From NCBI RefSeq assembly GCF_010091925.1, contig NZ_WVID01000008.1, positions 62,001 to 126,000 of the forward strand: a stretch of 64,000 nt of DNA, in the 5' to 3' direction. Origin of the DNA: Nostoc sp. B(2019). GTDB taxonomy: Bacteria; Cyanobacteriota; Cyanobacteriia; Cyanobacteriales; Nostocaceae. This document shows, piece after piece, positions 27 through 19,507 of this stretch (its first letter is position 1; the number at the start of each line of letters is the position of its first letter). The position numbers were made by a program, and so were the translations under genes. Below the pieces are notes generated by a model. The model ran no database searches and was not told the origin of the DNA. It worked only from the letters and a program-made list of their open reading frames with translations.

Positions 27-3000
27 GTTTCAATCCCTAATAGGGATTTTGATTAATTGGAACTCTAGTTAACTGGAGGGTGTGATAGTTTAGTGATTAG
101 TATCTGTTTCAATCCCTAATAGGGATTTTGATTAATTGGAACCTTGATCGCCTCCAAGTTGAGCGTTTTGCGATTGCTGGTAATGGTTTCAATCCCTAAT
201 AGGGATTTTGATTAATTGGAACCAGAAAAGCTCTGCGCTAATAGCAAACCTTGTTCGCTGGGCATTTGTTTCAATCCCTAATAGGGATTTTGATTAATTG
301 GAACAATACATGGCTCACACAAGCCAACACACCAACTAAGTTTCAATCCCTAATAGGGATTTTGATTAATTGGAACAGCAATTCACAGAGGAAGTAGAAA
401 GAGGCTTCACGTTTCAATCCCTAATAGGGATTTTGATTAATTGGAACAGGATCACTACTTCTTACTACGTAATTATTTCTTTGTTTCAATCCCTAATAGG
501 GATTTTGATTAATTGGAACGCGACGGGCGCAAGCGAAATGAGCGATGTAAGTGTTTCAATCCCTAATAGGGATTTTGATTAATTGGAACATTTCCTCGGT
601 GATGATGCACACCCTCCCCAGTGCTTTGTTTCAATCCCTAATAGGGATTTTGATTAATTGGAACGCCACAAAAATGAAGGAACAGAATCAATCATAGGTT
701 TCAATCCCTAATAGGGATTTTGATTAATTGGAACAAGACGGGATTGCCGCTGGGCATAAAAGTTTGAATGTTTCAATCCCTAATAGGGATTTTGATTAAT
801 TGGAACCAGCGACAGCCGCGGGTGAAAGAGAAATCAGTAACCTTATGTTTCAATCCCTAATAGGGATTTTGATTAATTGGAACCAATATTGAAAACAGGT
901 TGCCCTGTTGAATTCTGAGTTTCAATCCCTAATAGGGATTTTGATTAATTGGAACAATCAAACTGACCTAGTCAATAACCTTCAGTTTTTCGTTTCAATC
1001 CCTAATAGGGATTTTGATTAATTGGAACATAACTGTAAATACCCACTGCCATAAGGCTTTACGGGTTTCAATCCCTAATAGGGATTTTGATTAATTGGAA
1101 CTTTATGAAAAGACTCTTACTCCCACTGAAAGAGCTGTTTCAATCCCTAATAGGGATTTTGATTAATTGGAACATAAATTAATAATCCCGCGCAACCACT
1201 TACTCATGTTTCAATCCCTAATAGGGATTTTGATTAATTGGAACCTGAAACTATGCGTGCTACAGCCAAAAATCCCGTTTCAATCCCTAATAGGGATTTT
1301 GATTAATTGGAACGGCGTGACCGCTGACTTCTTGAATTGTTCGCAGTGGGTTTCAATCCCTAATAGGGATTTTGATTAATTGGAACTTGAGTAATGTCAG
1401 CAACCCATAACAAACTCGAGTTTCAATCCCTAATAGGGATTTTGATTAATTGGAACTTCTTTGGCTTCACCTTCATGTTCAAACGCCTCTGTTTCAATCC
1501 CTAATAGGGATTTTGATTAATTGGAACACTTAAACGAATTCCGCCCGGATCTTGTGGTTATTGTTTCAATCCCTAATAGGGATTTTGATTAATTGGAACT
1601 TGGTATTCACCAATTCCCTTGATCGTGCTTTTGTAAGTTTCAATCCCTAATAGGGATTTTGATTAATTGGAACAATGTTAAAGGCATACATACCCCCGTA
1701 AATTTAATGTTTCAATCCCTAATAGGGATTTTGATTAATTGGAACTACATACCCCCGTAAATTTAATGACACACGGCATGACAGTTTCAATCCCTAATAG
1801 GGATTTTGATTAATTGGAACTGGTACGAAATTTACCCATTCAAATCGCAGTAACTCGTTTCAATCCCTAATAGGGATTTTGATTAATTGGAACATGTAGC
1901 CATGGCATCCGTATTTCCTGCCTATGGTTTCAATCCCTAATAGGGATTTTGATTAATTGGAACTAATACCATCCATCCGCAAAACAGGCTCCTATAGTAT
2001 CCAAGTTTCAATCCCTAATAGGGATTTTGATTAATTGGAACTTTTGTGATCTTATAAGCAGTGTTAGTTGTGGATGTTTCAATCCCTAATAGGGATTTTG
2101 ATTAATTGGAACCTGGCAAGGGAACGGTGAACGATTCATTCTTCCTTACGTTTCAATCCCTAATAGGGATTTTGATTAATTGGAACACGTATTTATTTCC
2201 TTCCACACTAGGGAATTTCGTGAGTTTCAATCCCTAATAGGGATTTTGATTAATTGGAACGTTCACCGTTCCCTTGCCAGAAGCACCTTGTCCGGGTTTC
2301 AATCCCTAATAGGGATTTTGATTAATTGGAACAAATTCATGGGATTTAGTGTATGGGAGGCTTCTGTTTCAATCCCTAATAGGGATTTTGATTAATTGGA
2401 ACGTAAGGGGTGCTTTTTACTATGTCATAAAATATGTTTCAATCCCTAATAGGGATTTTGATTAATTGGAACCATTTTCTCAAGGATAGCCGATGACATA
2501 ATAGGATGTTTCAATCCCTAATAGGGATTTTGATTAATTGGAACTAAGCATTGCCTGTGCATCTATCAACAACACTAAGTTTCAATCCCTAATAGGGATT
2601 TTGATTAATTGGAACGTAAATAGTACCGATGCCATTATCTAGTCCCGCTGTTTCAATCCCTAATAGGGATTTTGATTAATTGGAACCCTAATGCGGTAAC
2701 AGAAGAATACACCAAGGATGAGTTTCAATCCCTAATAGGGATTTTGATTAATTGGAACCAAGGCTGTATGCGAGATAGAGGGCGTGAGACACATGTTTCA
2801 ATCCCTAATAGGGATTTTGATTAATTGGAACGGTAGATGGTTCCTGTGGTAGAAGATACCTTGAAGTTTCAATCCCTAATAGGGATTTTGATTAATTGGA
2901 ACGTCACCCCTGCGATGCCGATCGTTACCAACTTGGCACGAGTTTCAATCCCTAATAGGGATTTTGATTAATTGGAACACAAACGGATGCTACAAATAAC

Positions 3001-4800
3001 CTCCAGTTTTTCGTTTCAATCCCTAATAGGGATTTTGATTAATTGGAACAAGAGTGTACCCCAGGTACTCGGCATTAGCTAAGGCGTTTCAATCCCTAAT
3101 AGGGATTTTGATTAATTGGAACCATTCACGGGGACACTACCGTCGTACGATACCGTGTTTCAATCCCTAATAGGGATTTTGATTAATTGGAACTGGGATA
3201 CAGCCATTCGATACGCCCTGACATCCGCGTTTCAATCCCTAATAGGGATTTTGATTAATTGGAACTAGTACCTTTACGAGAGTCTTGAGTACAGGGATAT
3301 CTCCGTTTCAATCCCTAATAGGGATTTTGATTAATTGGAACCTTTTACTGTGTCATATTTTATGTCATCTCAAATGTTTCAATCCCTAATAGGGATTTTG
3401 ATTAATTGGAACACACTGACAATTTAATGAAGCGCCATGAGTAATGTTTCAATCCCTAATAGGGATTTTGATTAATTGGAACTCGATCACACTTACGACT
3501 TATGGAAATACTCAAAAGTTTCAATCCCTAATAGGGATTTTGATTAATTGGAACTTGTACAGTACCGGTAGTAGGTAGGGGGTAGGAATTCGTTTCAATC
3601 CCTAATAGGGATTTTGATTAATTGGAACCTATTAGCTCACAAGTTGCAAATACTGCACCTGAGTTTCAATCCCTAATAGGGATTTTGATTAATTGGAACA
3701 ACGAATTCTATAGTGTTGCGCGATATTCGTGATGTTTCAATCCCTAATAGGGATTTTGATTAATTGGAACCCATTCCGGCTTTTGAAATTCCAATCCAAC
3801 TTGATAGTTTCAATCCCTAATAGGGATTTTGATTAATTGGAACATATCGGCTTTCACCTCTGAATAGGAGCCATTAGTAGCTTTAGTTTCAATCCCTAAT
3901 AGGGATTTTGATTAATTGGAACAAGCTATCCCCCCTGCGGGAGAGGCGTATGATTTGTTTCAATCCCTAATAGGGATTTTGATTAATTGGAACTTTAAAC
4001 CCTGCCATTCGTCCGGTGAAGCGTCTGGATCGTAGTTTCAATCCCTAATAGGGATTTTGATTAATTGGAACGCTGGCGGTGCTGTTGCTGAATACCGTTT
4101 TGATGAAATGTTTCAATCCCTAATAGGGATTTTGATTAATTGGAACCAACCCAGTTACAAGCACAAACTGGATCGGGCAACGCGATGTTTCAATCCCTAA
4201 TAGGGATTTTGATTAATTGGAACGAGGGGCGTGAGCAAGCCAAGGTTAGTGCTAATGGTTTCAATCCCTAATAGGGATTTTGATTAATTGGAACATGCCA
4301 GGAAGAATAGATGAAATAGGTAATCGCTATGTTTCAATCCCTAATAGGGATTTTGATTAATTGGAACGTTCTCTGCACCTAGAATGCCTTGCAAAACACC
4401 GCTGTTTCAATCCCTAATAGGGATTTTGATTAATTGGAACCATACACGCATGAAAATTAACGAATTCTCAGAACTGTTTCAATCCCTAATAGGGATTTTG
4501 ATTAATTGGAACTGCTCCCTTCTGTTTTTAATCCAAATGAGTTAATGGTTTCAATCCCTAATAGGGATTTTGATTAATTGGAACCTTCTTAACAATTTCA
4601 CCGCAGCTAGAGCATTCTTGTTTCAATCCCTAATAGGGATTTTGATTAATTGGAACTATTAGATAAGTTGATAAGTTTACGTTCTCCTACTAGTTTCAAT
4701 CCCTAATAGGGATTTTGATTAATTGGAACCTTGATATCCTGCCAAGTCGTGGAAAAATTTGCGGTTTCAATCCCTAATAGGGATTTTGATTAATTGGAAC
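27..4800 (-). CRISPR. Type I-D CRISPR array, 66 repeats, truncated by the window edge
   Basis: I count 66 copies of a 37-bp repeat, first at 27-63 and last at 4764-4800, separated by 65 spacers of 32-45 bp. Bases 1-26 are part of a further spacer, so the array continues to the left. All copies look identical by eye. On the plus strand the repeat begins GTTTCAATCCCTAATAGGGA and ends ATTAATTGGAAC. On the minus strand it ends ATTGAAAC, the usual 5' handle of cyanobacterial crRNAs, so transcription is leftward, in line with the adjacent cas genes. The inner palindrome AATCCCT/AGGGATT would form the Cas6 stem. Newest spacers should be near 4764. Open reading frames inside the array are only translations of the repeat. 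Confidence 0.98.
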
Positions 4801-7087: not shown

Positions 7088-7933
7088 TTACGGATAATAC
7101 AGACGGCGTGCCATGCCCATACCCATTGGTGTTTTACGACCAATTCCCGCATATAAAGCAAAGTCAGCTAAGGCATTAATTTGCTTGATTTGTATCGGTT
7201 CAATTTCTCCTAAAACCCGATAGCTAACTTCTCCGAGAATGCCAATAAATTTACTGCGGGAGTCAGCTAATATTTCTGTATGAATGTTGATAAAAGATGG
7301 AAAAATTGACTCAATAGCAATATGTGAAAATTCGATACCGCTGTATTTGTTCCATCGTGAAAGCAGAGAGTTAAAGACAGATTCCCTGGTAGGGAGAGTA
7401 GTATCATACTGTCCTTGACGGAAGGCGGTGGGTGTGCAGAAGTTAAAGTGAATAGTGCGATGGCTCTCGCTAGCTTCCTCGTATAATTGAGCGTAGGTGC
7501 TAGCATTTGCCCAAGGTTGAATAGATTGGGGTGTGCCTTGAATGCTGGTAATATATAAATCAGCCGGGCCAAGATGCCAAGGGTGACTTGGATTAAGATT
7601 TAACCACAGTTGAGTAAGTTTGCCAAATAAACTATCGTCTAATAAAGAGATGCGCCACCAACAAGGTGTCCCGGTGGGGATGGGTTGTTGATGTTCCCAT
7701 TGCAATTTAGATCCCCCTTTACCACCCTTCAAAAGGGGGGAGTTTGTATTACTAATTTGCAAGGGAGAGAGAGTAAAAGCCTTATCTGCGGTAGAATCAT
7801 GCAAGCGATCGCCTAATTCTTTATCTACAGAGCTAACAAGGGTTAAAAATAGAGCGTGGAGATGTCTACCAGTGAGAAACTGTGGTGGAATAGGCGATTG
7901 AGGTAGCAAATTCAACACTAAGCTATGAGGCAT
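7088..7933 (-). CDS. cas6: CRISPR repeat endoribonuclease Cas6
   Basis: A 281-residue Cas6, which cuts the repeat stem to release crRNAs. The C-terminus carries the glycine-rich RNA-binding signature GIGRKTPMGMGMARRL. I place the start at 7933 (MPHSLVLNLLPQ). A further upstream in-frame ATG at 8011 would add 26 residues lying entirely inside the preceding oxygenase gene. The first codons overlap the 3' end of that gene by 11 bp, so the two are probably translationally coupled. A palindromic repeat sits in frame at about residues 64-74 (see 7711-7743), giving the segment NSPLLKGGKGGSK, which is unlike the rest of the protein. Confidence 0.93.
   Translation of the reverse strand: MPHSLVLNLLPQSPIPPQFLTGRHLHALFLTLVSSVDKELGDRLHDSTADKAFTLSPLQISNTNSPLLKGGKGGSKLQWEHQQPIPTGTPCWWRISLLDDSLFGKLTQLWLNLNPSHPWHLGPADLYITSIQGTPQSIQPWANASTYAQLYEEASESHRTIHFNFCTPTAFRQGQYDTTLPTRESVFNSLLSRWNKYSGIEFSHIAIESIFPSFINIHTEILADSRSKFIGILGEVSYRVLGEIEPIQIKQINALADFALYAGIGRKTPMGMGMARRLYYP
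7711..7743. repeat. C-rich palindromic repeat inserted in frame in cas6
   Basis: The sequence ATCCCCCTTTACCACCCTTC followed by AAAAGGGGGGAGT can fold on itself (CCCCCTTT against AAAGGGGG). Elements of this form are common between genes in Nostoc relatives. Here one lies within cas6 with the reading frame kept, encoding SPLLKGGKGGSK. Confidence 0.6.
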
Positions 7934-8543
7934 ATTTTCTTTTCTTAGTTGTAGACTGAGTGCTTCTTGACTCGACAGTAAACTCTGGAATTTCCTGGAG
8001 TTCAGCCTCACTCAAACTATACTGTTCACAAACTAAACTCAAGCGATTTCCTGGAGTTTTGACAGCGTTGACAGAATGAGTTAAATCACCTTGGAAATAA
8101 ACTAAAGTATTGAATTGGGGTTTAATTTGTCCAAGTTGACGTTTGTGCGATCTTAATACCAGTTCTCCTCCCTCCATATCTGCTGGTACGCGCACATAAA
8201 GAACGCTGACAAGTGTAGGCGGCTCAATAGTTTTGCAGTAGGAACGCAGCGAGCGATCAATATGTGGATCAACGCGGGAGCCTTCTTTTAGCTGTAAAGG
8301 ATTGAGGTAAAATGCATTACAATTCGGCTGGAGAGCTAAATCTAAGTAAGGTTTGAAGTAGGGGAATTGTTGCTCTACTTGTGGTAATCCAGAACGTTGA
8401 AACACCACCGAAAAGCCTTTAGTGGCGACAAAATCGCGGTTGAGGTTGTTGATAGCAAAATAAGAACAAGCTTGGATTTCTCCCCACAAGTTATTTAAGT
8501 AATCGCTGGGGAAGGCGTTGGGTTGTTGCTGATAGTGTTTCAC
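7923..8543 (-). CDS. 2OG-Fe(II) oxygenase (prolyl-hydroxylase-like) inside the cas operon
   Basis: A 206-residue protein with the double-stranded beta-helix signature of 2-oxoglutarate, iron-dependent dioxygenases. His94 and Asp96 form the HxD pair in VDPHIDRS, the distal iron ligand is His156 in GDLTHSVNAV, and Arg167 in PGNRLSL is placed to bind the 2OG carboxylate. The family hydroxylates proteins, nucleic acids or small molecules; the substrate here is unknown. It lies between csc1 (114 bp upstream) and cas6 (11-bp overlap), on the same strand, so it is almost certainly co-transcribed with the I-D effector genes. The C-terminal tail (SRSTQSTTKKRKYAS) is basic and probably disordered. Confidence 0.88.
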   Translation of the reverse strand: MKHYQQQPNAFPSDYLNNLWGEIQACSYFAINNLNRDFVATKGFSVVFQRSGLPQVEQQFPYFKPYLDLALQPNCNAFYLNPLQLKEGSRVDPHIDRSLRSYCKTIEPPTLVSVLYVRVPADMEGGELVLRSHKRQLGQIKPQFNTLVYFQGDLTHSVNAVKTPGNRLSLVCEQYSLSEAELQEIPEFTVESRSTQSTTKKRKYAS

Positions 8544-8657: not shown

Positions 8658-9365
8658 TTAGTTCCGAAAACGATATTCTATCCGAACTGGAATTTTTAAG
8701 TTTTGAATGCCATCAAATTGATAGTATTGCCCTCGCATTTGGACATTCTGAATTAAGCTAACTGGAGGCATATTCACAACATCATAGCTAATCACTTGAT
8801 TGGTGAACATCACATCTAACGGATTTAATGGATGTGTACAAGTGAATATACCTTCAGAAATTTTATGTTTCGGTAATGGTTCTACTGTCACTTCAGCCTT
8901 GCTCATCCATTTACCCAAGCGAATCCACTTTGGTAGTTTGAGTTCTTTTTGGGAGATGACAAAAAACTCAAATATACTTTCTGCTGCTATTTCTTTCGCT
9001 CTCCCAAAGCTAGGAATATTTTTCTGTGTTTTCTCCATTTCAACGTGGTAGTTGTTGTTAGCATACTTCCAGGTGTTGAGGATAGAAGAATGATTGAGCG
9101 ATCGCGCCGGAGTTACGTAAATTTCCTGTTGATTGAGTGGCGTTAAATGCTCCTCATATTTTGGCACTTGTTCGGGGCAAAAATAGCGATAGGAATGTTC
9201 TTCAGCAACGGTAGTAGAGTAGATTTGGCTATCAACTAAACCCAGTGCATAACAGAGAGCATAATTGTGAATTATTGGCTCTGTTTCATACAATCGCCCG
9301 ATTTCACGAGTTGCGTAATAAAGGCTGTCATGTAGTTCTATTTGACAGCGATAAATTAACACCAT
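8658..9365 (-). CDS. csc1: Type I-D effector subunit Csc1 (Cas5d)
   Basis: A 235-residue Csc1, the Cas5-like subunit that caps the 5' handle of the crRNA in the type I-D effector. The start MVLIYRCQIELHDSLYYATR and the end KIPVRIEYRFRN match the family layout I know. Its first base overlaps the last base of the csc2 stop region at 9365 (a TAATG junction), which indicates translational coupling. Family assignment also rests on position next to csc2 and cas10d. Confidence 0.93.
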   Translation of the reverse strand: MVLIYRCQIELHDSLYYATREIGRLYETEPIIHNYALCYALGLVDSQIYSTTVAEEHSYRYFCPEQVPKYEEHLTPLNQQEIYVTPARSLNHSSILNTWKYANNNYHVEMEKTQKNIPSFGRAKEIAAESIFEFFVISQKELKLPKWIRLGKWMSKAEVTVEPLPKHKISEGIFTCTHPLNPLDVMFTNQVISYDVVNMPPVSLIQNVQMRGQYYQFDGIQNLKIPVRIEYRFRN

Positions 9366-10414
9366 TACTCTTTCCCCACTTTAGCAGCAGTTTTCTTCTT
9401 GCTGATATGCTTCTTGGCATAATCTTTAGCTTCTGCATCAGCTTTTTGCAAAATTGCCTGGATTCCTTTCTCGCTTCCTGTTAGAGTCTTTACTTCATTA
9501 ATTAGGGATAAAAAAGCATCACCAATGAAATCTGTATGAACAATAAATTCATCAGCCATTAACGCCTCGATAGAATTTTTAGCGGCAGTAATTACATCAT
9601 CTTCATCTAATGGATCGGGAGCATTTAAAGTATTATTAGATTTCATTTGGTCATATATTGCCTGAGTCCAACGCAGGTTACTAGTAATTTCTCCGTCTGC
9701 AAATACAACACCAATCAACTCATTTCTAACGCGACCTGTACGGGTGGTTTGCGCTCCATAATGACGAGTTCGCAGAATGTTATTAAAAACGTAAAGGAAG
9801 CTAGCCTCAGTGGGGTCTTTCAAGGTGACAATACTAGGAAAGAAAACTTGAGGTAAGATATGATCTTGTTGGTTAATTCTGGCTGTTACTGTACCTATTT
9901 CTCCATCTAGTTTGCCATCTGATTTCTTTTCTCCTTTTGCCGCCATTGTGCCATTCTCATAGGGAGCATTGAGAGTAAAGGTTTCGTGTGATTCATCAAA
10001 AGATGTAATTGAAAATGCCGTGTCCACCACAACTTTCGATTTTTCTGAGCCAGAATCACCAATAGCAAACCCATAAATAATGCAATCAGGATTATCCATT
10101 GCAAAGGCTACGTTATATTCACATTCTTCAGCAGTCATTAAACCATAGTTTCGTAGTAATTCTCGACCTACTAAACGTTCTGGTGTTGATTGCTTACGTT
10201 TGAACATTGACAAACGGCTAATTGTAGTTTTGTCTTTGACTCCGGCTCTTACTCGTGCTTTATTCAGTTCTGCATCTGTCTGAAATAAAGGATAGGATTC
10301 GGTAATACGAATAGTCAAAAAATGGACATATTTACCCATTGGTTTGTATGGAATTTCAGATTGAAAAAACTTCGCTTCAACAGTCTTCAATAATGACATA
10401 TTTTTTGTCTCCAA
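9365..10414 (-). CDS. csc2: Type I-D effector backbone subunit Csc2 (Cas7d)
   Basis: A 349-residue Csc2, the Cas7-family protein that polymerises along the crRNA and forms the backbone of the I-D interference complex. Visible features are the N-terminal KPMGKYVHFLTIRITESYPL, the central segment FNNILRTRHYGAQTTRTGRV typical of Csc2, and a lysine-rich C-terminus. It lies 64 bp after cas10d and overlaps csc1 by one base. Confidence 0.95.
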   Translation of the reverse strand: METKNMSLLKTVEAKFFQSEIPYKPMGKYVHFLTIRITESYPLFQTDAELNKARVRAGVKDKTTISRLSMFKRKQSTPERLVGRELLRNYGLMTAEECEYNVAFAMDNPDCIIYGFAIGDSGSEKSKVVVDTAFSITSFDESHETFTLNAPYENGTMAAKGEKKSDGKLDGEIGTVTARINQQDHILPQVFFPSIVTLKDPTEASFLYVFNNILRTRHYGAQTTRTGRVRNELIGVVFADGEITSNLRWTQAIYDQMKSNNTLNAPDPLDEDDVITAAKNSIEALMADEFIVHTDFIGDAFLSLINEVKTLTGSEKGIQAILQKADAEAKDYAKKHISKKKTAAKVGKE

Positions 10415-10478: not shown

Positions 10479-13400
10479 TCAATCTTCATTTTCTTCTTGT
10501 ATGTCATTATCAGTTTTATTACCTTTATCATGGTATTCTTTATCATTTTCTAGACGATATAAAAACTCGCAAGTATCTTTGATTAGATTGAGTTGACGAC
10601 CAGCTAAACGAGCGCGATCGCCTGCAAATGATTTTTCAAAAACTTCTACTACAAAGTGTTGTGCAAAATTTAAAATTGCCTCTCGTTCTTCATCACGATG
10701 AGCGATAACCCAACGTCCCTCTGCTGTTGAGTTACGCACTCGCTCCATCAATTTGAAAATTTTTGCAGCTACAGCATCAACTAATACTTCACCTTGAAAA
10801 AAATTTTTGTCGGCTTTGATAATAGTCTCAGCAGCCTCATCAATTGGTTTCAAGATAGCATTAGACTTGATTGGTTTTCCTTTACTAGATTTTGCTCGGT
10901 AAAATTTACGGTAAAGGTCAGTTAATTTTTTAGGATGATGCAAGTGTGATTCTTCTGTCATAGTCCACTTCTCCAGTTGAAAATCATATTTAACATAAGG
11001 GTCAAAACAAGGGTAAAAGTGGTGAGCATAAAGCTTGATTTTACTCAAGCTTGCAGTATCAACTTTTTGGTTACGTACCCAGCGATTGAGGTAAGAAAAG
11101 ACGTATAGTGGACTGGTTTCAAAATCTTTAGCCAGTTCTGTAAATCTCCCCCAATTGGCATCGTAACCAGACTTACCCTGTCGCGCATTCACATCTAAAT
11201 GAATGGCATAAGCGGCAGTAAGCACATTTAAAGGTGCTGGGTATTGGATGCCGTTTTCATTCCAGCCTTCGAGGATGTAGTCAAGACGGAACCGATCGCG
11301 TCTTACTAAAGCACGGAAAGCATGAGGCGCACTATCAAGGAAAACGCTTTCCTCAAATTCAGCCCCATCATTAAAGGGTGGAATTGGTGACTCTGAAACC
11401 ACAGTTTTAACATCTAAAATCATTGGGAAAGCAAATGCTAACCAAGTTGGCATTACCCAAGATTCTGTGTCCGTGCTGTCTCTTCCTGGCGGGAGTGCCA
11501 TGAAGTAAAATGTTAAAGGCTGGTCTTCAGGATAGGAAAGCTTAAAGGTGCGATCCTTGTCACGCTGGAGGTTTTCATCGATTAAGAAACTATCTACACT
11601 TTGGTAGCGATCGCGCCCCAAATCCGCCTGCAAATCCTTACTGATAAAGTGATTGCGAACGCTGGTATCAAAGCGAGTTTGAGCAATACCGTTGTATGCT
11701 TTTTGCAAAAACTTATTAGTCTCTGGAGTAAAGTAATAAGTAGGATAAAAGTATAGATAGCGATATTTACCATCTTCAAATCGCTTACCTACAGCTTGAG
11801 TTTGATTCATCAAGATTTGCCTCAGCATCATCTCCACACCTGCAATACTGGAGATATTGCGTTTAGCGTTAGAACCTCCTAACATTTGCTTGTTTGTATA
11901 AACTTGAGGCGTAAATAAAACTGCTGATTCCATTTGCTCAGTAACCGTGTAAGCAGAATGAGAAATTGAGCAGATTAATTGTTTCCCTCGCCCTGTTTTT
12001 TTCGCAGCATTGTAATTATCTAACTCATTTAAAAATGTTTCAACTTGAGTTTTAACAGATGACTCTTGATTAGTGCCTGGTAACATCACAACTCGCTTTA
12101 CCCAAAGCCTTAAATCATCCCAACCATCAGGTAATTCATACTGAGAAATTATCGGAGAAATTAAGGTTGTCAAATAGCCAATGACTTGCTGACAAGCTTC
12201 GCGTACATCTTCAATTCCTGGATGATGTTCTAAATATTTAGCCGCCAGATAATACCATTCATAAGGAACTCCCCCAGTATTTCCCTTTAACTTGTTTTCT
12301 TTCAGACTTTCATTAATGCGTTGAATTTCTCTAATTTGGGGTAAACATTCTGCTAAATTCCAAAATTCTGCAACTTTGTGAGTTAAATCAAAATCGGGAA
12401 CTGCTGGCAGCTTTTTATCTTTCTTACGAGCATAATCAACGCGATTAACTGTCTCTTCCCAAATCTTCCGGCTAACTAAATCACCAAATTCTGCTATTTG
12501 GTCAATGCGGATATCTTCTTCAAATTTGAAATCATAGTCAGCAGATAAAACTTTTTGTTGCTGAAACTTGTTCAAATTTTCGCTGCGACTTTTAGCAACA
12601 GAGCCTTTATTAGGGTTTAAGATGCGTAACGTAGCATCTAAAGCTACTTTCATCAAGCCTATGTCATCAAAAAATAAGTTGTAATATTCGGCATATTTCA
12701 TGCCTTTGCCATCTCTACCAAATCCTGTTTGTCTGAGGCGTAATTGTCCTGCACAAAGCGATTTAATACTGTTAATTACACGGTCTGGTAAATCTTCTGG
12801 CGAGATAGCCGGAGCATTGCGCGAAGCCAAGTAAATCACGCCTGTCGGCAGATATAATAAAGGTTCATAGTAGGTATGCTCATCAGTATTGAGACTAGTA
12901 TGAGCTTGAATTAAAGCATTATTCACCACATTAGTTAAAACACCACGATTCTCAGCAATGCTGTGATAGGTAAATTTTAATTGCCCATCACTGAGGCTGT
13001 GGATGATTTCTTTGAGTCGAGGATGTTCTGCATCTTGGGGATGTTTAACAATTGAGGCGAGAGAATCAGCTAAACAAGTTAAATCAGATAAACTGCGAAG
13101 GGTGCGGTCTTTGAGAAGAGGATTTAACCCAAATTCAGAAAAATTCCAGTTAGTATCCCAGCGACGTTGAGCATTATAAGCCATGCACAACAAATCATCT
13201 AGATACTCTCGATAAGCTTCAGGATTTTCTGGATTTATAAAGTTATCTAGTTCTAACTGGTGAACTTTTTTATCAATAATTTCACGATGTTCTGTTAACG
13301 ATAGCTTGCGGCAGCTTTCAGGGACATCAGGAAACTTTTCAAAATCATGTAATATAAATCCAGCAATTACTAATCTACGTTCTCGCTCTTTCACAACTCG

Positions 13401-13775
13401 CTGCACTGTGGTATTAAGTTTTTCTAAACGTTTCTCAATTAAATTTGCTGGGAATAATCCATTGAGTAAATGAGTATTAAGCGATTGGTCAGCAGCGTTA
13501 TCTCGTCTAACTTTAGTTTTTCCTTCAGCTTCTCGCTGTTGGTCAATTTCATCAAAGAACTTACCACCTTTCGCTGTTACACCAATGGCTATCCTCAACA
13601 GATTTGGTAAGACATACTCGGCAAAGTCTGCCATTACCTTATCATCTGGATTTTGAGCTTGAATTGCTTCTCGTAATAGCTTGAGTGTTAGTAACTCTCC
13701 TTCAATTTCAATAGTGCGGTCTGAAGAATCACCATCAAAACCAAAATCACCTGATAACCAATCATCATTAGACAT
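10479..13775 (-). CDS. cas10d: Type I-D large subunit Cas10d (Csc3) with HD nuclease domain
   Basis: A 1098-residue Cas10d/Csc3, the signature protein of subtype I-D. In this subtype the HD nuclease is carried by the large subunit and not by Cas3; the motif is His143-Asp144 in GFILHDFEKFPD. The long middle and C-terminal parts are the diverged palm-like and helical regions involved in PAM recognition and contact with Cas7. The acidic tail (DNDIQEENED) is probably flexible. It follows the PDDEXK nuclease gene by 17 bp and precedes csc2 by 64 bp. Length is close to normal and no frameshift is seen. Confidence 0.95.
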   Translation of the reverse strand: MSNDDWLSGDFGFDGDSSDRTIEIEGELLTLKLLREAIQAQNPDDKVMADFAEYVLPNLLRIAIGVTAKGGKFFDEIDQQREAEGKTKVRRDNAADQSLNTHLLNGLFPANLIEKRLEKLNTTVQRVVKERERRLVIAGFILHDFEKFPDVPESCRKLSLTEHREIIDKKVHQLELDNFINPENPEAYREYLDDLLCMAYNAQRRWDTNWNFSEFGLNPLLKDRTLRSLSDLTCLADSLASIVKHPQDAEHPRLKEIIHSLSDGQLKFTYHSIAENRGVLTNVVNNALIQAHTSLNTDEHTYYEPLLYLPTGVIYLASRNAPAISPEDLPDRVINSIKSLCAGQLRLRQTGFGRDGKGMKYAEYYNLFFDDIGLMKVALDATLRILNPNKGSVAKSRSENLNKFQQQKVLSADYDFKFEEDIRIDQIAEFGDLVSRKIWEETVNRVDYARKKDKKLPAVPDFDLTHKVAEFWNLAECLPQIREIQRINESLKENKLKGNTGGVPYEWYYLAAKYLEHHPGIEDVREACQQVIGYLTTLISPIISQYELPDGWDDLRLWVKRVVMLPGTNQESSVKTQVETFLNELDNYNAAKKTGRGKQLICSISHSAYTVTEQMESAVLFTPQVYTNKQMLGGSNAKRNISSIAGVEMMLRQILMNQTQAVGKRFEDGKYRYLYFYPTYYFTPETNKFLQKAYNGIAQTRFDTSVRNHFISKDLQADLGRDRYQSVDSFLIDENLQRDKDRTFKLSYPEDQPLTFYFMALPPGRDSTDTESWVMPTWLAFAFPMILDVKTVVSESPIPPFNDGAEFEESVFLDSAPHAFRALVRRDRFRLDYILEGWNENGIQYPAPLNVLTAAYAIHLDVNARQGKSGYDANWGRFTELAKDFETSPLYVFSYLNRWVRNQKVDTASLSKIKLYAHHFYPCFDPYVKYDFQLEKWTMTEESHLHHPKKLTDLYRKFYRAKSSKGKPIKSNAILKPIDEAAETIIKADKNFFQGEVLVDAVAAKIFKLMERVRNSTAEGRWVIAHRDEEREAILNFAQHFVVEVFEKSFAGDRARLAGRQLNLIKDTCEFLYRLENDKEYHDKGNKTDNDIQEENED

Positions 13776-13792: not shown

Positions 13793-14812
13793 TTACTCCA
13801 CGCCTTCTAGCAACTTGGCAACTTGCTCTGGAGCCGGAAGCTGATTTTTTAATTCTTGAGGCAACGTAGAAAACAGTTTATAAGTTGCGATACCAATTGG
13901 TTTATTCGATTCTCTCAGTGCATACTCAACAATAGTTTTATCCTTGGATTTACAAAGAATAATTCCGATTGAGAGATTTTCGTCTGGAAATCGAGATAAA
14001 TCATCTAAAGCCGCCAGATAAAATTGCATTTTTCCCACATACTCAGGTAGGAACTCTCCAGTTTTTAACTCAATCGCAACTAGACATTTTAATTGGCGGT
14101 GATACAGCAACAGATCAATAAAAAATTCTTTATCGCCAACTTCTAAGCGATACTGACTGCCAACAAAAGTAAACCGCCCACCCATTTCTTGCAAGAATGG
14201 TTCAACTCTTGCTAAAATCGCCTGTTCTAGCTGTCGTTCATTGTGTTCATCTGCTAGTTCCAAGAAATCAAAAGTATATTCATCTTTGACAGCTAGTTTT
14301 AATTGGTTACGAATCTCTGCTGGAACAGTTTTATCAAAGTTAGTCTGATTTAACAGAGTTTTTTCATAGGTTTGATTTTCAATTTGGTGAATCAAAACAT
14401 TCTTTGTCCAGCCAAATTTACGAGTCATTCTGATATAAAATTCCCGTTCTAAGTCATCTTTGCACTTCTCTACAATGACCAGATTGTGACTCCATCCAAT
14501 TTCTCGCACCATTGGTGCGAGTTTTTCATTATTGACGTATGATTCATAAAAAAGCCTCATTCGCCAGAGGTTAGCAGCAGAAAATCCGCTAATTCCTGGA
14601 AACTCTGCTTGTAAGTCTTTTGCTAACTGTTCTACTACGGATTTTCCCCAACTAGCGCCCTGCTGTTGAGTAACAATTATCTGTCCAATGTCCCAGTAAA
14701 GGTTAATCATTTCCCGATTAACTGCTTTTAGTGCTTCGTACTGGGCTGAACGAATACGCTGTTTTATTTCCATTAGTAAATGTCTGTAATTATCTGAAAC
14801 GGGGTTACTCAT
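13793..14812 (-). CDS. DUF1016/PDDEXK nuclease (YhcG-like) within the cas operon
   Basis: A 339-residue protein with an N-terminal DUF1016 helical domain (about residues 10-150, including INLYWDIGQIIVTQQQ and WGKSVVEQLAKDLQ) and a C-terminal PDDEXK nuclease core. The core shows an Asp in EFFIDLLLYHRQLK and the ExK pair in LVAIELKTGEF. The family (YhcG, RpnC-like) is thought to process DNA and is often mobile. The start overlaps the DUF433 gene by 4 bp (ATGA), so the two form a coupled pair directly upstream of cas10d. Whether it helps interference or adaptation, or is a passenger, cannot be told from sequence. Confidence 0.88.
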   Translation of the reverse strand: MSNPVSDNYRHLLMEIKQRIRSAQYEALKAVNREMINLYWDIGQIIVTQQQGASWGKSVVEQLAKDLQAEFPGISGFSAANLWRMRLFYESYVNNEKLAPMVREIGWSHNLVIVEKCKDDLEREFYIRMTRKFGWTKNVLIHQIENQTYEKTLLNQTNFDKTVPAEIRNQLKLAVKDEYTFDFLELADEHNERQLEQAILARVEPFLQEMGGRFTFVGSQYRLEVGDKEFFIDLLLYHRQLKCLVAIELKTGEFLPEYVGKMQFYLAALDDLSRFPDENLSIGIILCKSKDKTIVEYALRESNKPIGIATYKLFSTLPQELKNQLPAPEQVAKLLEGVE

Positions 14813-15048
14813 AACGGAAAAGGTTCAACTCGCTCATGACTAACTAGCCGACGCGCATATATCAAACAGGCTTGTGCATCTTCCCGTTCTAACCAGGGAT
14901 AACCTTCTAGCAAGGTTTCAATAGTATCTCCCGCCGCCAACATCCCCAAAATATGTTCAACTGCAAGGCGGCGACCTCGAATAATTGGTTTGCCGCCAAA
15001 GATTTTAGGGTTGACTGTGATTCTTTCTAAAAATTGTTGTTCGTTCAT
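14809..15048 (-). CDS. DUF433 family antitoxin-like protein
   Basis: A 79-residue DUF433 protein. The family signature is complete: ITVNPKIFGGKPIIRGRR followed by the helix-turn-helix-like stretch HILGMLAAGDTIETLLEGYP and LEREDAQACLIYA. DUF433 proteins usually pair with DUF5615 PIN-like toxins; here the partner downstream is the PDDEXK nuclease, joined by a 4-bp ATGA overlap. A second, broken DUF433 lies at the head of the same operon. Role inferred as DNA-binding or antitoxin. Confidence 0.88.
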   Translation of the reverse strand: MNEQQFLERITVNPKIFGGKPIIRGRRLAVEHILGMLAAGDTIETLLEGYPWLEREDAQACLIYARRLVSHERVEPFPL

Positions 15049-15121: not shown

Positions 15122-15331
15122 TTACGCAGCCAATATCAATAACTCTCTAGGAATTTGATAAGGCTGTTGTGAGAATAGGTTGAGTTCGAGTTGCTCGTAC
15201 CTGACACACTGTTGAACTTCTTCAACCTGAAACTGAAACTTTTCACTATTGACTGGAGTAACCTGCTCAACTGTGTAAAGTTCCACATCGAAGAGAACTA
15301 ATTGTTCACCATTCATTTTTGTTATCTCCAT
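15122..15331 (-). CDS. Small acidic hypothetical protein in the cas operon
   Basis: A 69-residue protein rich in Glu and Gln (QFQVEEVQQCVRYEQLELNL), with no membrane segment and no family I recognise. A later in-frame ATG exists at residue 6 (MNGEQL). It lies 73 bp before DUF433 on the same strand and directly downstream of the poly-T tract at 15374-15382. If real it would be the first gene after the unusual non-coding region that follows cas3. Confidence 0.5.
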   Translation of the reverse strand: MEITKMNGEQLVLFDVELYTVEQVTPVNSEKFQFQVEEVQQCVRYEQLELNLFSQQPYQIPRELLILAA

Positions 15332-15371: not shown

Positions 15372-15470
15372 TCAAAAAAAAAGGTCTTACGCCGGACGGA
15401 TGCAAGCATCGGAACAGCGACTCTCCGTCTTTGTACTTGAAGGCTCACGCCACCAAGTAGACTTTAACAC
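15372..15470 (-). ncRNA. Candidate structured RNA or attenuator between cas3 and the downstream cas genes
   Basis: On the minus strand this interval can pair AGTCTAC (15457-15463) with GTAAGAC (15384-15390) around an inner stem GACGGA/TCCGTC (15424-15429 with 15395-15400). It contains two hairpin-like pieces with GNRA loops (GGC-GTGA-GCC at 15442-15451 and GGC-GTAA-GACC near 15383-15393) and ends in nine T residues (15374-15382). That is the shape of a small RNA with a terminator, or of an attenuator inside the operon. The structure was drawn by hand and not computed, so this is only a candidate. Confidence 0.3.
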
Positions 15471-15524
15471 AGCTTTATAAGTTCAGCATCAGAAGACAGG
15501 TTCATTTTTGACGACACATTTCTA

Positions 15525-15530
15525 TATAAT
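15525..15530 (+). promoter_or_regulatory. Consensus -10 box facing the mini-array
   Basis: TATAAT stands at 15525-15530 on the plus strand. A start 7 bases later falls at about 15537, where a full 37-base first repeat of the mini-array would begin. No good -35 box is present at 17 bp spacing (TTGACG at 15508-15513 is only 11 bp away). Confidence 0.45.
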
Positions 15531-15536
15531 TGAATG

Positions 15537-15648
15537 TAGAGGGTAACTAATAATCCCTATCAGGGATTGAAATTTCCGTTGCTGCACTTGCAGGCTTACG
15601 CCCTCCCACTGTAAATCAGTGATCAAAATCCCTATCAGGGATTGAAAC
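15537..15648 (+). CRISPR. Two-repeat mini-CRISPR inside the cas operon, opposite strand
   Basis: Two repeat copies flank one 38-base spacer (15574-15611). The second copy (15612-15648) matches the main repeat over its last 27 bases with one change (ATCAGGG for ATTAGGG). The first (15537-15573) keeps the last 22 bases with the same change and ends GAAAT instead of GAAAC. Both keep the AATCCCT/AGGGATT stem needed by Cas6. The crRNA sense is the plus strand, opposite to cas3 and opposite to the main array. The second repeat ends one base before the cas3 stop codon. The shared T-to-C change means the two copies arose together and not from separate decay of the main array. Confidence 0.7.
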
Positions 15649-15649
15649 C

Positions 15650-17827
15650 TCAAACAATCCATATTTCATCTCCTTTGCTTTTAAACGTATAAGCAAGCGT
15701 ATCCAGCAGCAGCGCAGAGTGACCAAATGCGATCGCATAGGGCGCAGTAGCATCATGAAAGCTATACTGATCGCTGATGCCATAAATCTGAAAATTCATC
15801 GGTAGCCTTAGCCGCATCCGCACTTCAGCAAGAGGACGGCGAATTACGTAACAAACCAAACCTTCCTTTTTTAGGCGTTTGTTAATTTCCCCAACCCAAT
15901 AGTTGTCAGGTTGCCAAATTTCCACACCTGTCAAAACCTGAACTTTCCAAGCGTCAGCAATTGGCTGCAAGTTGCCAGAGTAGGTAAACTTCCAGTTCAG
16001 CCGTTCCTCTCGGTAGGAACGTAACTTCATAAATGCTAGACAATGAGCAAACCTACCCTTGGCAATGGGTTGTCTGGTGCGTTCTGTGGTTTCTTTGAGT
16101 GTCCGTATAAATGCCGCTTCTGTCCACATTTCAATTTCTAAATTTCCCAAAATACCCGGTAAATCGTAGGTTTTAAACCTATCTGCCTCGTTTTCTTCCG
16201 TTAAGTCGTATAAACCACATTGCAAAGGACTTAAACCTCGAAAACTAGCAGCATCCTCAGCAATAGGATTACCTGATTTACCAGAAAGTGCTTGCCAATC
16301 TTTCGCCCATCCTGAAACCCGTCCAGCCGCAGACTTCAAACTTGTTTCAAATACTTGTTCACAGGCTTCTTGAAACTTGTCTCGGCTTTGGGCATACTGT
16401 TGTTTAATTGTGCGATCACTCAACTGATAACACAACCGAAATGATTGTACAGCCCCCCAACGACGATAATAACCACGAAAATCGTTGATTTGTCGATAAT
16501 TCTCAGTAATTGTATTGTGAAAAGAAGGGCGATCGCAAATGCTATTCACTTCTAACGGTGGAGTATCTCCCTTAAATAAACGCTCTACTAAAAAGTTAGG
16601 AACTAGAGCAAAAGCTGTGAAATTCTCAAAGTTGATTTTCTGACCATCTTTCTCATATCCATCATGTCTTCCTAAGCGTCCCAAGCGTTGGATAAAGTTA
16701 CCTGCATCTGATGACTCAAAAATGAGAAAATTGATTTTGAAATCAACCCCAACATCAATTGTGCTTGTACCAATAACCAAGTCAGCCGCAAGACTTCGTT
16801 CCTTTTCTCCTTTTCCCGATAACCCTGTGTTTTCTCCAACGTTCAATCCGTAAGGCTGTAATATTTCCCGAAAGAATTGAGTTAGGCGCTTCACGACTGC
16901 AATTGAGTTAAGGATGATTGCACCTTTACTTCCTGGATATTGCTGAAACTGAGCCAAAATCAAATCATTATTTTCTTTTAACCAGGTTTCTGAAGCTTTA
17001 AATGACGGTTCCAAAGGAATAAAATTCAACGAAATTGTTCGTGCTACCTGCCGCCATCCCTGCGCTTGTAGTTGCTGCCCTTGCTCTGGTGTATTGGGAA
17101 ATTGATATTTATTTTTTTCAATAGGATTAATCTCTTTACAATGAAATCCTGCTTTTTCTAATCGCCCGATTAAATTTGTATCTGGTGTAGCTGAGAGAAA
17201 CAGAAATTTTTTGCGGCGGTTTGTACAGCGAATTAAGAGCATTGTGTTAATCACACTAGCAATTTGTGGAGCCGCGAAAACATGAAATTCATCAAAAATG
17301 AATAAGTCAAAATCTTTATCAATTCTGCCCCATAATTTGTCTGGGCTATCGCCATGAATTATATAAGCACCTCGATGCAAATAATGAAGAATATCAGGGT
17401 TGGTTAATAATGCTTCTCTCTGGTTAGTGAGAGTTGCGATCGCAGCTCCTTTTTTCAATCCTTCATTTTCAGAATAAATCTCTAAATCAGCACCAGAAAG
17501 GCGCACTACACGCGGCTGATTCTCTGGCTGAAATTTCTCAACATATCCTCTAATCTGCGTTTCTTGATCGCGGGCGAGTTCATTGGTTGGATAAAGTCCG
17601 ATCGCAGAAAATTCGCCCTGAAGAACTTCTAGGTAAGCTGCGAGACTTTTACCATCGCCAGTCATCGCAGTGTTGAACACGACATCAATATTTGAATCGC
17701 GCAACGCTTCTAAAGTTGCGGCTTGATGCCAAGAAAGCAACCAATCTTTAGGTAATTTCACCCCGTTAGGTGTCGGGACGGTTTGCGAGTAAACAGGCTT
17801 TAGAGTAATTTTGTATGCTTCCGTCAT
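15650..17827 (-). CDS. cas3: CRISPR-associated helicase Cas3 (Cas3', no HD domain), type I-D
   Basis: A 725-residue superfamily 2 helicase. Walker A is at residues 53-61 (TAMTGDGKS), the DEAD-type motif II is DEFH at 179-182, motif III is SATPD at 212-216 and motif VI is QRLGRLGRHDG near residue 385. There is no HD domain, as expected for subtype I-D where it sits in Cas10d. The helicase is recruited to the R-loop and unwinds target DNA. Its start overlaps the DUF5615 gene by 4 bp (ATGA). Its stop lies next to the mini-array. Confidence 0.94.
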   Translation of the reverse strand: MTEAYKITLKPVYSQTVPTPNGVKLPKDWLLSWHQAATLEALRDSNIDVVFNTAMTGDGKSLAAYLEVLQGEFSAIGLYPTNELARDQETQIRGYVEKFQPENQPRVVRLSGADLEIYSENEGLKKGAAIATLTNQREALLTNPDILHYLHRGAYIIHGDSPDKLWGRIDKDFDLFIFDEFHVFAAPQIASVINTMLLIRCTNRRKKFLFLSATPDTNLIGRLEKAGFHCKEINPIEKNKYQFPNTPEQGQQLQAQGWRQVARTISLNFIPLEPSFKASETWLKENNDLILAQFQQYPGSKGAIILNSIAVVKRLTQFFREILQPYGLNVGENTGLSGKGEKERSLAADLVIGTSTIDVGVDFKINFLIFESSDAGNFIQRLGRLGRHDGYEKDGQKINFENFTAFALVPNFLVERLFKGDTPPLEVNSICDRPSFHNTITENYRQINDFRGYYRRWGAVQSFRLCYQLSDRTIKQQYAQSRDKFQEACEQVFETSLKSAAGRVSGWAKDWQALSGKSGNPIAEDAASFRGLSPLQCGLYDLTEENEADRFKTYDLPGILGNLEIEMWTEAAFIRTLKETTERTRQPIAKGRFAHCLAFMKLRSYREERLNWKFTYSGNLQPIADAWKVQVLTGVEIWQPDNYWVGEINKRLKKEGLVCYVIRRPLAEVRMRLRLPMNFQIYGISDQYSFHDATAPYAIAFGHSALLLDTLAYTFKSKGDEIWIV

Positions 17828-18206
17828 TTGTCTTTTCTCTCCACCTCAATATCCTGATATTCTTGAATACTTCCTTGTCGAGTTCTCCATAATTTACCAG
17901 TCACATCTGCTGCTTCAAGTCCAGCAATGAGAGTTTCTGTAACTGTATGGTAATCTTCAAAACTAGGACGGGATGGTAAACGAATGACTATAATTCCTGT
18001 ATAGTGAGAAGGATTATATTTAAGACGATTTCCAAATCCTCTATCTATCGTTACTAAACATCTGTTCTCGCTACGGCAAATATCAATTAATTCCTCATCA
18101 TGAGTTGACATTAAACCTTGTTCTCGGACAGTGGCGACATCATGTCCTGCAAGACGTAATGATGTAGCTACTCGCAGACTACCAAGATTTTCATCAAGTT
18201 TAATAT

Positions 18207-18210
<4 letters not shown>
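17824..18210 (-). CDS. DUF5615 PIN-like protein, toxin-type partner of DUF433
   Basis: A 128-residue protein with the DUF5615/Mut7-C-like pattern: KLDENLGSLRVATSLRLAGHD at the N-terminus, an acidic centre STHDEELIDICRSENR, then LVTIDRGFGNRL. In this family the acidic residues form a PIN-like nuclease site and the usual partner is a DUF433 antitoxin. It starts at GTG in a 4-bp overlap (GTGA) with the reading frame of the broken DUF433 gene upstream and overlaps cas3 by 4 bp, so it belongs to the cas transcript. Confidence 0.85.

Positions 18211-19507
<1,297 letters not shown>

Follow-up and report, generated by a model that had tools for sequence, protein, structure and literature searches.

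What purpose does a two-repeat CRISPR mini-array serve when it lies inside a cas operon, and why does its single spacer match a nearby site with mismatches at every sixth base? This question is raised by the window, i.e. the whole 64,000-nt stretch of Nostoc sp. B(2019) DNA that was analysed. Matches to cas10d, csc2, csc1, cas6 and cas3', all on the minus strand, assign the operon to subtype I-D. The genes below were assigned by family match unless stated otherwise.

28..4785, minus strand: canonical CRISPR array with 66 repeat cores, repeat GTTCCAATTAATCAAAATCCCTATTAGGGATTGAAAC
7088..8011, minus strand: cas6
8658..9365, minus strand: csc1 (cas5d)
9365..10414, minus strand: csc2 (cas7d)
10479..13775, minus strand: cas10d/csc3
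13793..14812, minus strand: DUF1016/YhcG PDDEXK nuclease, ahead of cas10d in the operon
14809..15048, minus strand: DUF433 protein, ahead of cas10d in the operon
15122..15331, minus strand: small ORF of 69 aa without Pfam or NCBIfam match
15650..17827, minus strand: cas3' (type I-D)

A 2OG-Fe(II) oxygenase gene (7923-8543, minus strand) lies between csc1 and cas6 of the operon. Just upstream of cas3, a DUF5615/PIN-like gene and a DUF433 gene (17824-18606, minus strand) form a possible toxin-antitoxin pair. The divergent gene that follows (18641-19507, plus strand) encodes a WCX domain with a sub-threshold WYL match and resembles the WYL gene adjoining cas3 in Synechocystis pSYSA; judging from this resemblance, its product may be cas3's own protein repressor. 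The cas3-cas10d gap of pSYSA comprises 13 bases and leaves no space for a mini-array.

In the window, the mini-array occupies the interval that separates cas3 from the effector genes and reads on the plus strand.

15525..15530, plus strand: possible -10 of the mini-array, TATAAT (motif)
15537..15573, plus strand: mini-array repeat 1, its 5' part differing from the canonical repeat
15574..15611, plus strand: mini-array spacer of 38 nt, putative CreR-like guide (repeat comparison)
15612..15648, plus strand: mini-array repeat 2, its 3' end at the cas3 stop

Compared with the 66 canonical repeats, the mini-array repeats (15552-15647) carry one changed core base (CTATCAGGG versus CTATTAGGG), and their 5' part differs as well.

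Homologous loci were collected by cas3 searches, which gave matches in 167 of 388 genomes of the order (E 1e-60) and in 69 of 291 genomes of the class (E 1e-150), and by an additional DNA search of 60 relatives. Named genomes with listed cas3 homologues belong to Nostoc, Calothrix, Leptolyngbya, Pseudanabaena and others. We took nearly all full-length cas3 matches of at least about 57% identity and left out those of at most about 51% and most partial ones, which after removal of duplicates resulted in 147 distinct type I-D cas3 3' ends. Loci sharing an identical stretch next to cas3 entered the set a single time; the window is therefore absent from the 147 and is represented by L012, which is 97% identical to it.

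A two-repeat mini-array was detected beside cas3 in 97 of the 147 loci, and 92 of these 97 end at the cas3 stop. In shuffled regions, the detector reported a repeat pair at the cas3-stop place in 0.17% and anywhere in 3.2%, and among real stretches farther off it did so in 2 of 111. Given these rates, a few of the five non-adjacent mini-arrays are possibly false. Among the 50 mini-array-negative loci, several show a single repeat or a diverged form by eye, and one (L180, PCC 7117) carries a diverged mini-array that the detector missed. A conserved promoter ahead of the mini-array was set aside as a weak candidate; a perfect TATAAT is located 5' of the mini-array in 14 of the 97 loci versus 5% of shuffles. 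We also rejected the idea of an old virus spacer, since viral contigs and phages gave nothing convincing: the first 21 spacer bases had no exact match in viral contigs, and the 21 phage records obtained were weak, none covering 80%, with E values of about 6 among the 20 matches listed.

Two sites in the neighbourhood resemble the spacer. Site 1, absent from the earlier note on this DNA, carries a PAM and overlies the predicted promoter of the effector genes.

15478..15497, minus strand: site 1, predicted DNA target; PAM GTC at 15497-15495, protospacer positions 1-17 at 15494-15478, 13/17 matching

The type I-D PAM is GTN in Synechocystis and GTH in Microcystis (PMC10212523). Like site 2, site 1 recurs in homologous loci: a GT PAM with at least 13/17 matching positions was found in 69 of the 97 mini-array loci, versus 0.15% for shuffled and 0.45% for swapped spacers. 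Without the PAM requirement, a match of at least 13/17 was present in 83 loci and was preceded by GTT in 36 and by GTC in 23. Among 104 distinct site 1 matches (at least 12/17), the mismatch fraction was low at positions 1-5 and 7-9 (0-.12), rose to.12-.46 at positions 10-11 and 13-17, was high at positions 6 (.65) and 12 (.69), and approached the random level past position 17.

A generic promoter scan gave no consensus promoter for the effector-gene operon. The prediction used here derives from a motif and from its layout relative to the two sites.

15461..15469, minus strand: extended -10 of the predicted effector-operon promoter, TGTTAAAGT (motif and layout)
15423..15451, minus-strand transcript: site 2, 22 of 29 positions complementary to spacer positions 1-29, near the predicted 5' end

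An extended -10 (TGnTAnnnT) precedes site 2 by 6-13 nt in 15 of the 18 loci of the window's type (type A, defined by distance and by spacer bases 2-3), where chance would give 4.1%; the other types show it in 1 of 48 loci. The start of site 1 precedes site 2 by 43-50 nt in 14 of the 15 loci with a minus-strand site 1, and the window shares this layout of its type. Cascade bound at site 1 would therefore cover the promoter, and site 2 would correspond to about the first 30 bases of the mRNA; the 5' end of the cas transcript would then be at about 15454. The homologous loci back the placement of the target within the control region of the cas operon, as the earlier note had proposed. At the cut-offs used, 62 of the 97 loci contain both sites, 20 only site 1, 9 only site 2 and 6 neither, which indicates that the two targets are separable.

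Site 2 is the match from which the earlier note started, and its alignment was exact. Without gaps, 15573-15602 and 15422-15451, which are 151 bp apart, are identical at 23 of 30 positions (22 over spacer positions 1-30), with mismatches at positions 1, 7, 8, 9, 12, 18 and 24 when counted from 15574. The chance of a best match of 22/30 is 0.01%, based on 100 shuffled spacers in each of 97 loci, regions of about 750 bases and both strands. With at least 16 of positions 8-30 matching, site 2 was found in 71 of the 97 mini-array loci versus 1.4% of shuffles. It is on the plus strand in all 71, and the guide is therefore complementary to a cas transcript. The scoring gave equal weight to all positions; candidates that had GT at the PAM or overlapped site 1 were skipped, and the flank was checked separately without that bias.

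In 66 distinct pairs of spacer and site 2, the mismatch fractions at positions 6, 12, 18, 24 and 30 were.77,.67,.74,.82 and.91, i.e. near or above 75%, the level of no constraint, and those at positions 10, 11, 16, 17, 23, 25, 27, 28 and 29 were 0-.06. Permutation of columns 10-29 gave p = 0.0006 for positions 12, 18 and 24 jointly. As far as the sequences of related loci go, the mismatch at every sixth base seen in the window is a conserved signature. Further frequent mismatches at positions 1-3 (.52-.65), 8 (.59) and 21 (.45) have no explanation in flipped bases. The similarity between spacer and site 2 fades beyond positions 4-29. Site 2 was also located independently of the spacer, by applying profiles derived from earlier loci to later loci from which the mini-array had been removed. 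It was recovered in 29 of 58 loci, 24 of them held out and 5 training loci extracted again, and the periodicity was retained (.66,.69,.69 and.90 mismatch at 6, 12, 18 and 24) in a set that includes the held-out L142, out of register by one base. These sites were likewise mismatched at positions 2 and 3 (.86 each) and 21 (.66).

The earlier note had proposed to compare homologous loci for co-variation of spacer and site at non-sixth positions. At the 20 non-sixth positions, 93.9% of cells were paired with G-U allowed; slid registers reached 24.8-45.5% and 200 row shuffles no more than 77.0%. The covariation value was 0.274, versus at most 0.038 in slid registers and at most 0.075 after row shuffling. 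A mini-array and site 2 were both present in 41 of 80 named loci, and these 41 were placed on a cas3 tree, on which 141 spacer changes and 153 site changes occurred at the 20 non-sixth positions. Spacer and site changed on the same branch 115 times and identically in 102 of these cases. Slid registers gave 35-59 same-branch changes but only 0-6 identical ones, and independence expects about 13.5. Since changes are clumped on branches, the number of identical changes is the appropriate measure. The four sixth positions had 17 same-branch changes, with 12 expected, and a single one of them was identical. The 102 identical co-changes are spread over 24 branches, with up to 12 per branch and ten branches holding one or two. 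Because of this clumping, some of the joint change is explained by exchange of the module as a whole, and the branches with many events may be such exchanges. The comparison backs the view that the guide is kept for a purpose other than cutting.

In light of these data, we consider it likely that the mini-array is a type I-D relative of CreR, in which one guide would have both promoter DNA and cas transcript RNA as targets. The mini-array would give rise to a processed, crRNA-like regulatory RNA that is loaded into the I-D effector. At site 1 (15497-15478, minus strand), which overlies the predicted promoter, GTC and incomplete pairing with guide positions 1-16 would define the DNA target, and binding of this partial kind would repress transcription of the effector genes. 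At site 2, guide positions 4-29 would pair with the transcript at 15451-15423 without any PAM, and the sixth bases would be left free because the effector backbone flips them out. The contact with RNA would most likely constitute a second layer of negative feedback in which the emerging transcript is held or cut. Competing canonical crRNAs, or anti-CRISPR proteins acting on Cascade, would relieve both controls, as described for CreR. The conserved sixth-base pattern in related loci thus suggests a defence system that regulates itself.

That the second target is RNA we infer from several properties of site 2: it lacks a PAM, has a poor seed, always points the same way relative to the operon and in many loci is separated from site 1 by hundreds of bases. 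The I-D Cascade, moreover, binds ssRNA and flips sixth bases. Binding of ssRNA was reported at about 11 nM for both flanks tested, and a structure with bound ssRNA was solved (PMC9123187); the flipping out of each sixth base by the backbone is described in PMC10212523. We lean towards site 2 being a natural RNA target for the I-D Cascade, a dedicated guide binding its own promoter DNA and its own transcript RNA and the transcripts of many genomes holding a conserved structured element with the binding site, as a switch read by the effector.

In many of the 38 loci with a distant site 2, the site is part of a conserved element about 150 nt long. A covariance model of the element found 21 copies in 291 genomes, one in each of 21 genomes, among the best 10 candidates per genome, and by their coordinates all 21 are less than 1 kb from a I-D cas3. 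Among 145 loci, the element and a mini-array occurred together in 65, the mini-array alone in 32, the element alone in 2 and neither of them in 46; one of the two with the element alone is L180 (Picosynechococcus sp. PCC 7117), the locus with the diverged mini-array. The 692 bases that separate its cas3 from cas10d contain this mini-array, the element, site 1 (GTC, 15/17) and site 2 (22/30). The element does not appear to be a known RNA: in 10 homologous loci (window excluded), Rfam gave three matches at gathering score, all of them CRISPR repeats, and left the element unmatched. The outer stem P1 and the stem P3 beat all 500 dealt-out shuffles, while the hairpin P2, i.e. site 2 itself, was equalled by 54 of 500. 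In the strand test, the mRNA strand is preferred by P1 and P2 (G-U 26 and 69 versus A-C 12 and 24) but not by P3 (9 versus 20), with 104 versus 56 in its favour overall. As this outcome is mixed, the assignment to RNA rests mainly on the missing PAM, the poor seed, orientation, distance, ssRNA binding and base flipping. The leader of the window is of ordinary stability (z 0.47), and the element model (R1) yielded no element in the window and in 18 loci of other types. Considering these values and the unremarkable P2, we call the element probably structured, and do so only for the other locus types.

The possibility that the element is a second guide on the plus strand, considered on the grounds that its flank GGGGTTGAGATT resembles a repeat end, is unlikely given the mixed G-U/A-C counts with their overall tilt towards the mRNA strand. 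We also discarded an attenuator: the A run at 15374-15382, a U run in the transcript, has a shorter counterpart only in L012, L052 and L055, the closest relatives, and a scan for a terminator-like site found none. A small ORF of about 60 aa is located between site 1 and the element in L016 (about 1010-1201, minus strand) and likewise in L277, on the stretch from cas3 to the element. Both appear winged-helix-like by eye; the L016 ORF has no Pfam match.

The main rival assigns the opposite effect to the same contact. Site 2 RNA may act as a sponge for guide-loaded Cascade, so that each cas transcript would relieve the repression at site 1. Such a decoy accounts for the same pairing and co-variation, it agrees with the conservation of the element past the paired part in many genomes, and site 1 alone could provide the feedback, as in the 20 loci containing only this site. 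A single site per transcript would make a weak sponge, and nothing decisive speaks against it; we regard this role as unlikely, though worth serious consideration.

The earlier note had proposed binding of the effector to site 2 as DNA, which could block read-through into the effector genes. Site 2 is indeed just downstream of the predicted start in the window and in loci of its type, and a six-base periodicity would suit any effector-bound duplex. However, the bases 5' of site 2 in the window are ACT rather than GTN, as the earlier note had itself objected, and the missing PAM and poor seed recur across this class of sites: GTN was found at 0 of 24 held-out sites located without the spacer, 20 of which carry GA-N-T/G flanks, and site 2 positions 1-3 are usually mismatched. 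In 38 of the 71 loci, site 2 and the mini-array are also separated by 470-660 bp, in contrast to a median of 130 bp for site 1. The role of a Cascade DNA-binding site is consequently unsupported for 15422-15451, as the GTC PAM and the seed belong to 15497-15478 on the minus strand. We consider a PAM-less roadblock improbable; blocked read-through at 15422-15451, although possible, is not needed by the explanation given here.

Even less probable is pairing of the mini-array transcript with the cas mRNA as a plain antisense RNA without the effector. Complementarity does span positions 4-29, and non-sixth mismatches are more often wobble-compatible (58) than reverse transitions (28), but a naked duplex offers no reason for drift at exactly positions 6, 12, 18, 24 and 30. 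An old duplication of spacer or site in the course of decay, suggested by the likeness and proximity of the copies and named in the earlier note as the case that would overturn its reading, can practically be dismissed, as it is contradicted by the co-variation, which also argues against free divergence, by the non-random positions of the mismatches and by the fading of similarity outside positions 4-29.

The regulatory guide proposed here can be compared to three known systems. CreR, reportedly first described by Liu et al. in 2023, is the closest of them in our reading. It represses cas genes of types I-B, I-E and V-A via partial complementarity to their promoters (PMC13131331), and the repression is relieved by competing crRNAs or anti-CRISPR proteins (PMC12737573). 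The shared traits are a mini-array beside cas genes, a partial guide match at a cas promoter and repression instead of cutting (PMC13131331, PMC12737573), the last being predicted here. Membership is indicated by the mini-array with ectopic repeats near cas genes (97/147, 92 at the cas3 stop) and by PAM and partial match at the predicted cas promoter (69/97 versus 0.15% of shuffles; GTC and 13/17 in the window). Two differences are that type I-D is not among the CreR subtypes named in the available passages of PMC13131331 (I-B, I-E, V-A) and that the guide here has an additional PAM-less, co-evolving site on the transcript side. In CreTA, the crRNA-like CreA with its degenerate repeats also guides Cascade to a promoter (PMC12737573), but the target operon here is the cas operon. 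The CreT-like toxin that the earlier note had considered found no support, as the downstream 69-aa ORF (15122-15331) matched neither Pfam nor NCBIfam at E 0.01. Type III effectors and the I-D Cascade in vitro likewise pair with RNA independently of a PAM and with a six-base periodicity of the backbone (PMC10212523, PMC9123187). For type I-D, the passages available describe ssRNA binding in vitro with made-up targets (PMC9123187), in contrast to the natural target and regulatory use proposed here, and interference in vivo has been tested against dsDNA only, according to the corresponding part of a review (PMC10212523).

Among the matches listed in a search of literature titles and abstracts, which did not extend to subscription papers and preprints, none concerned such a type I-D mini-array or an RNA target of the I-D Cascade in its own operon. 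To our knowledge, the second, transcript-side class of targets has no described counterpart. If confirmed, the proposal would extend guide-based self-regulation to type I-D and would suggest a natural purpose for the RNA binding that structures and binding assays have shown for the I-D Cascade. The 66 distinct guide-site pairs furthermore show which guide positions count for the effector.

Other arrangements were observed beside cas3. In L024 and L183, mini-array and RNA element look fused: a single spacer-like copy is present, and the second half of the element replaces repeat 1. Seven loci (L048, L050, L066, L158, L172, L176 and L178) contain a different, single-repeat form at the 3' side of cas3, in which a repeat end is followed by ATGACCTACTA-like sequence, in most loci with flanking inverted repeats such as GGGAGG/CCTCCC. 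This form is possibly another class of regulatory guide.
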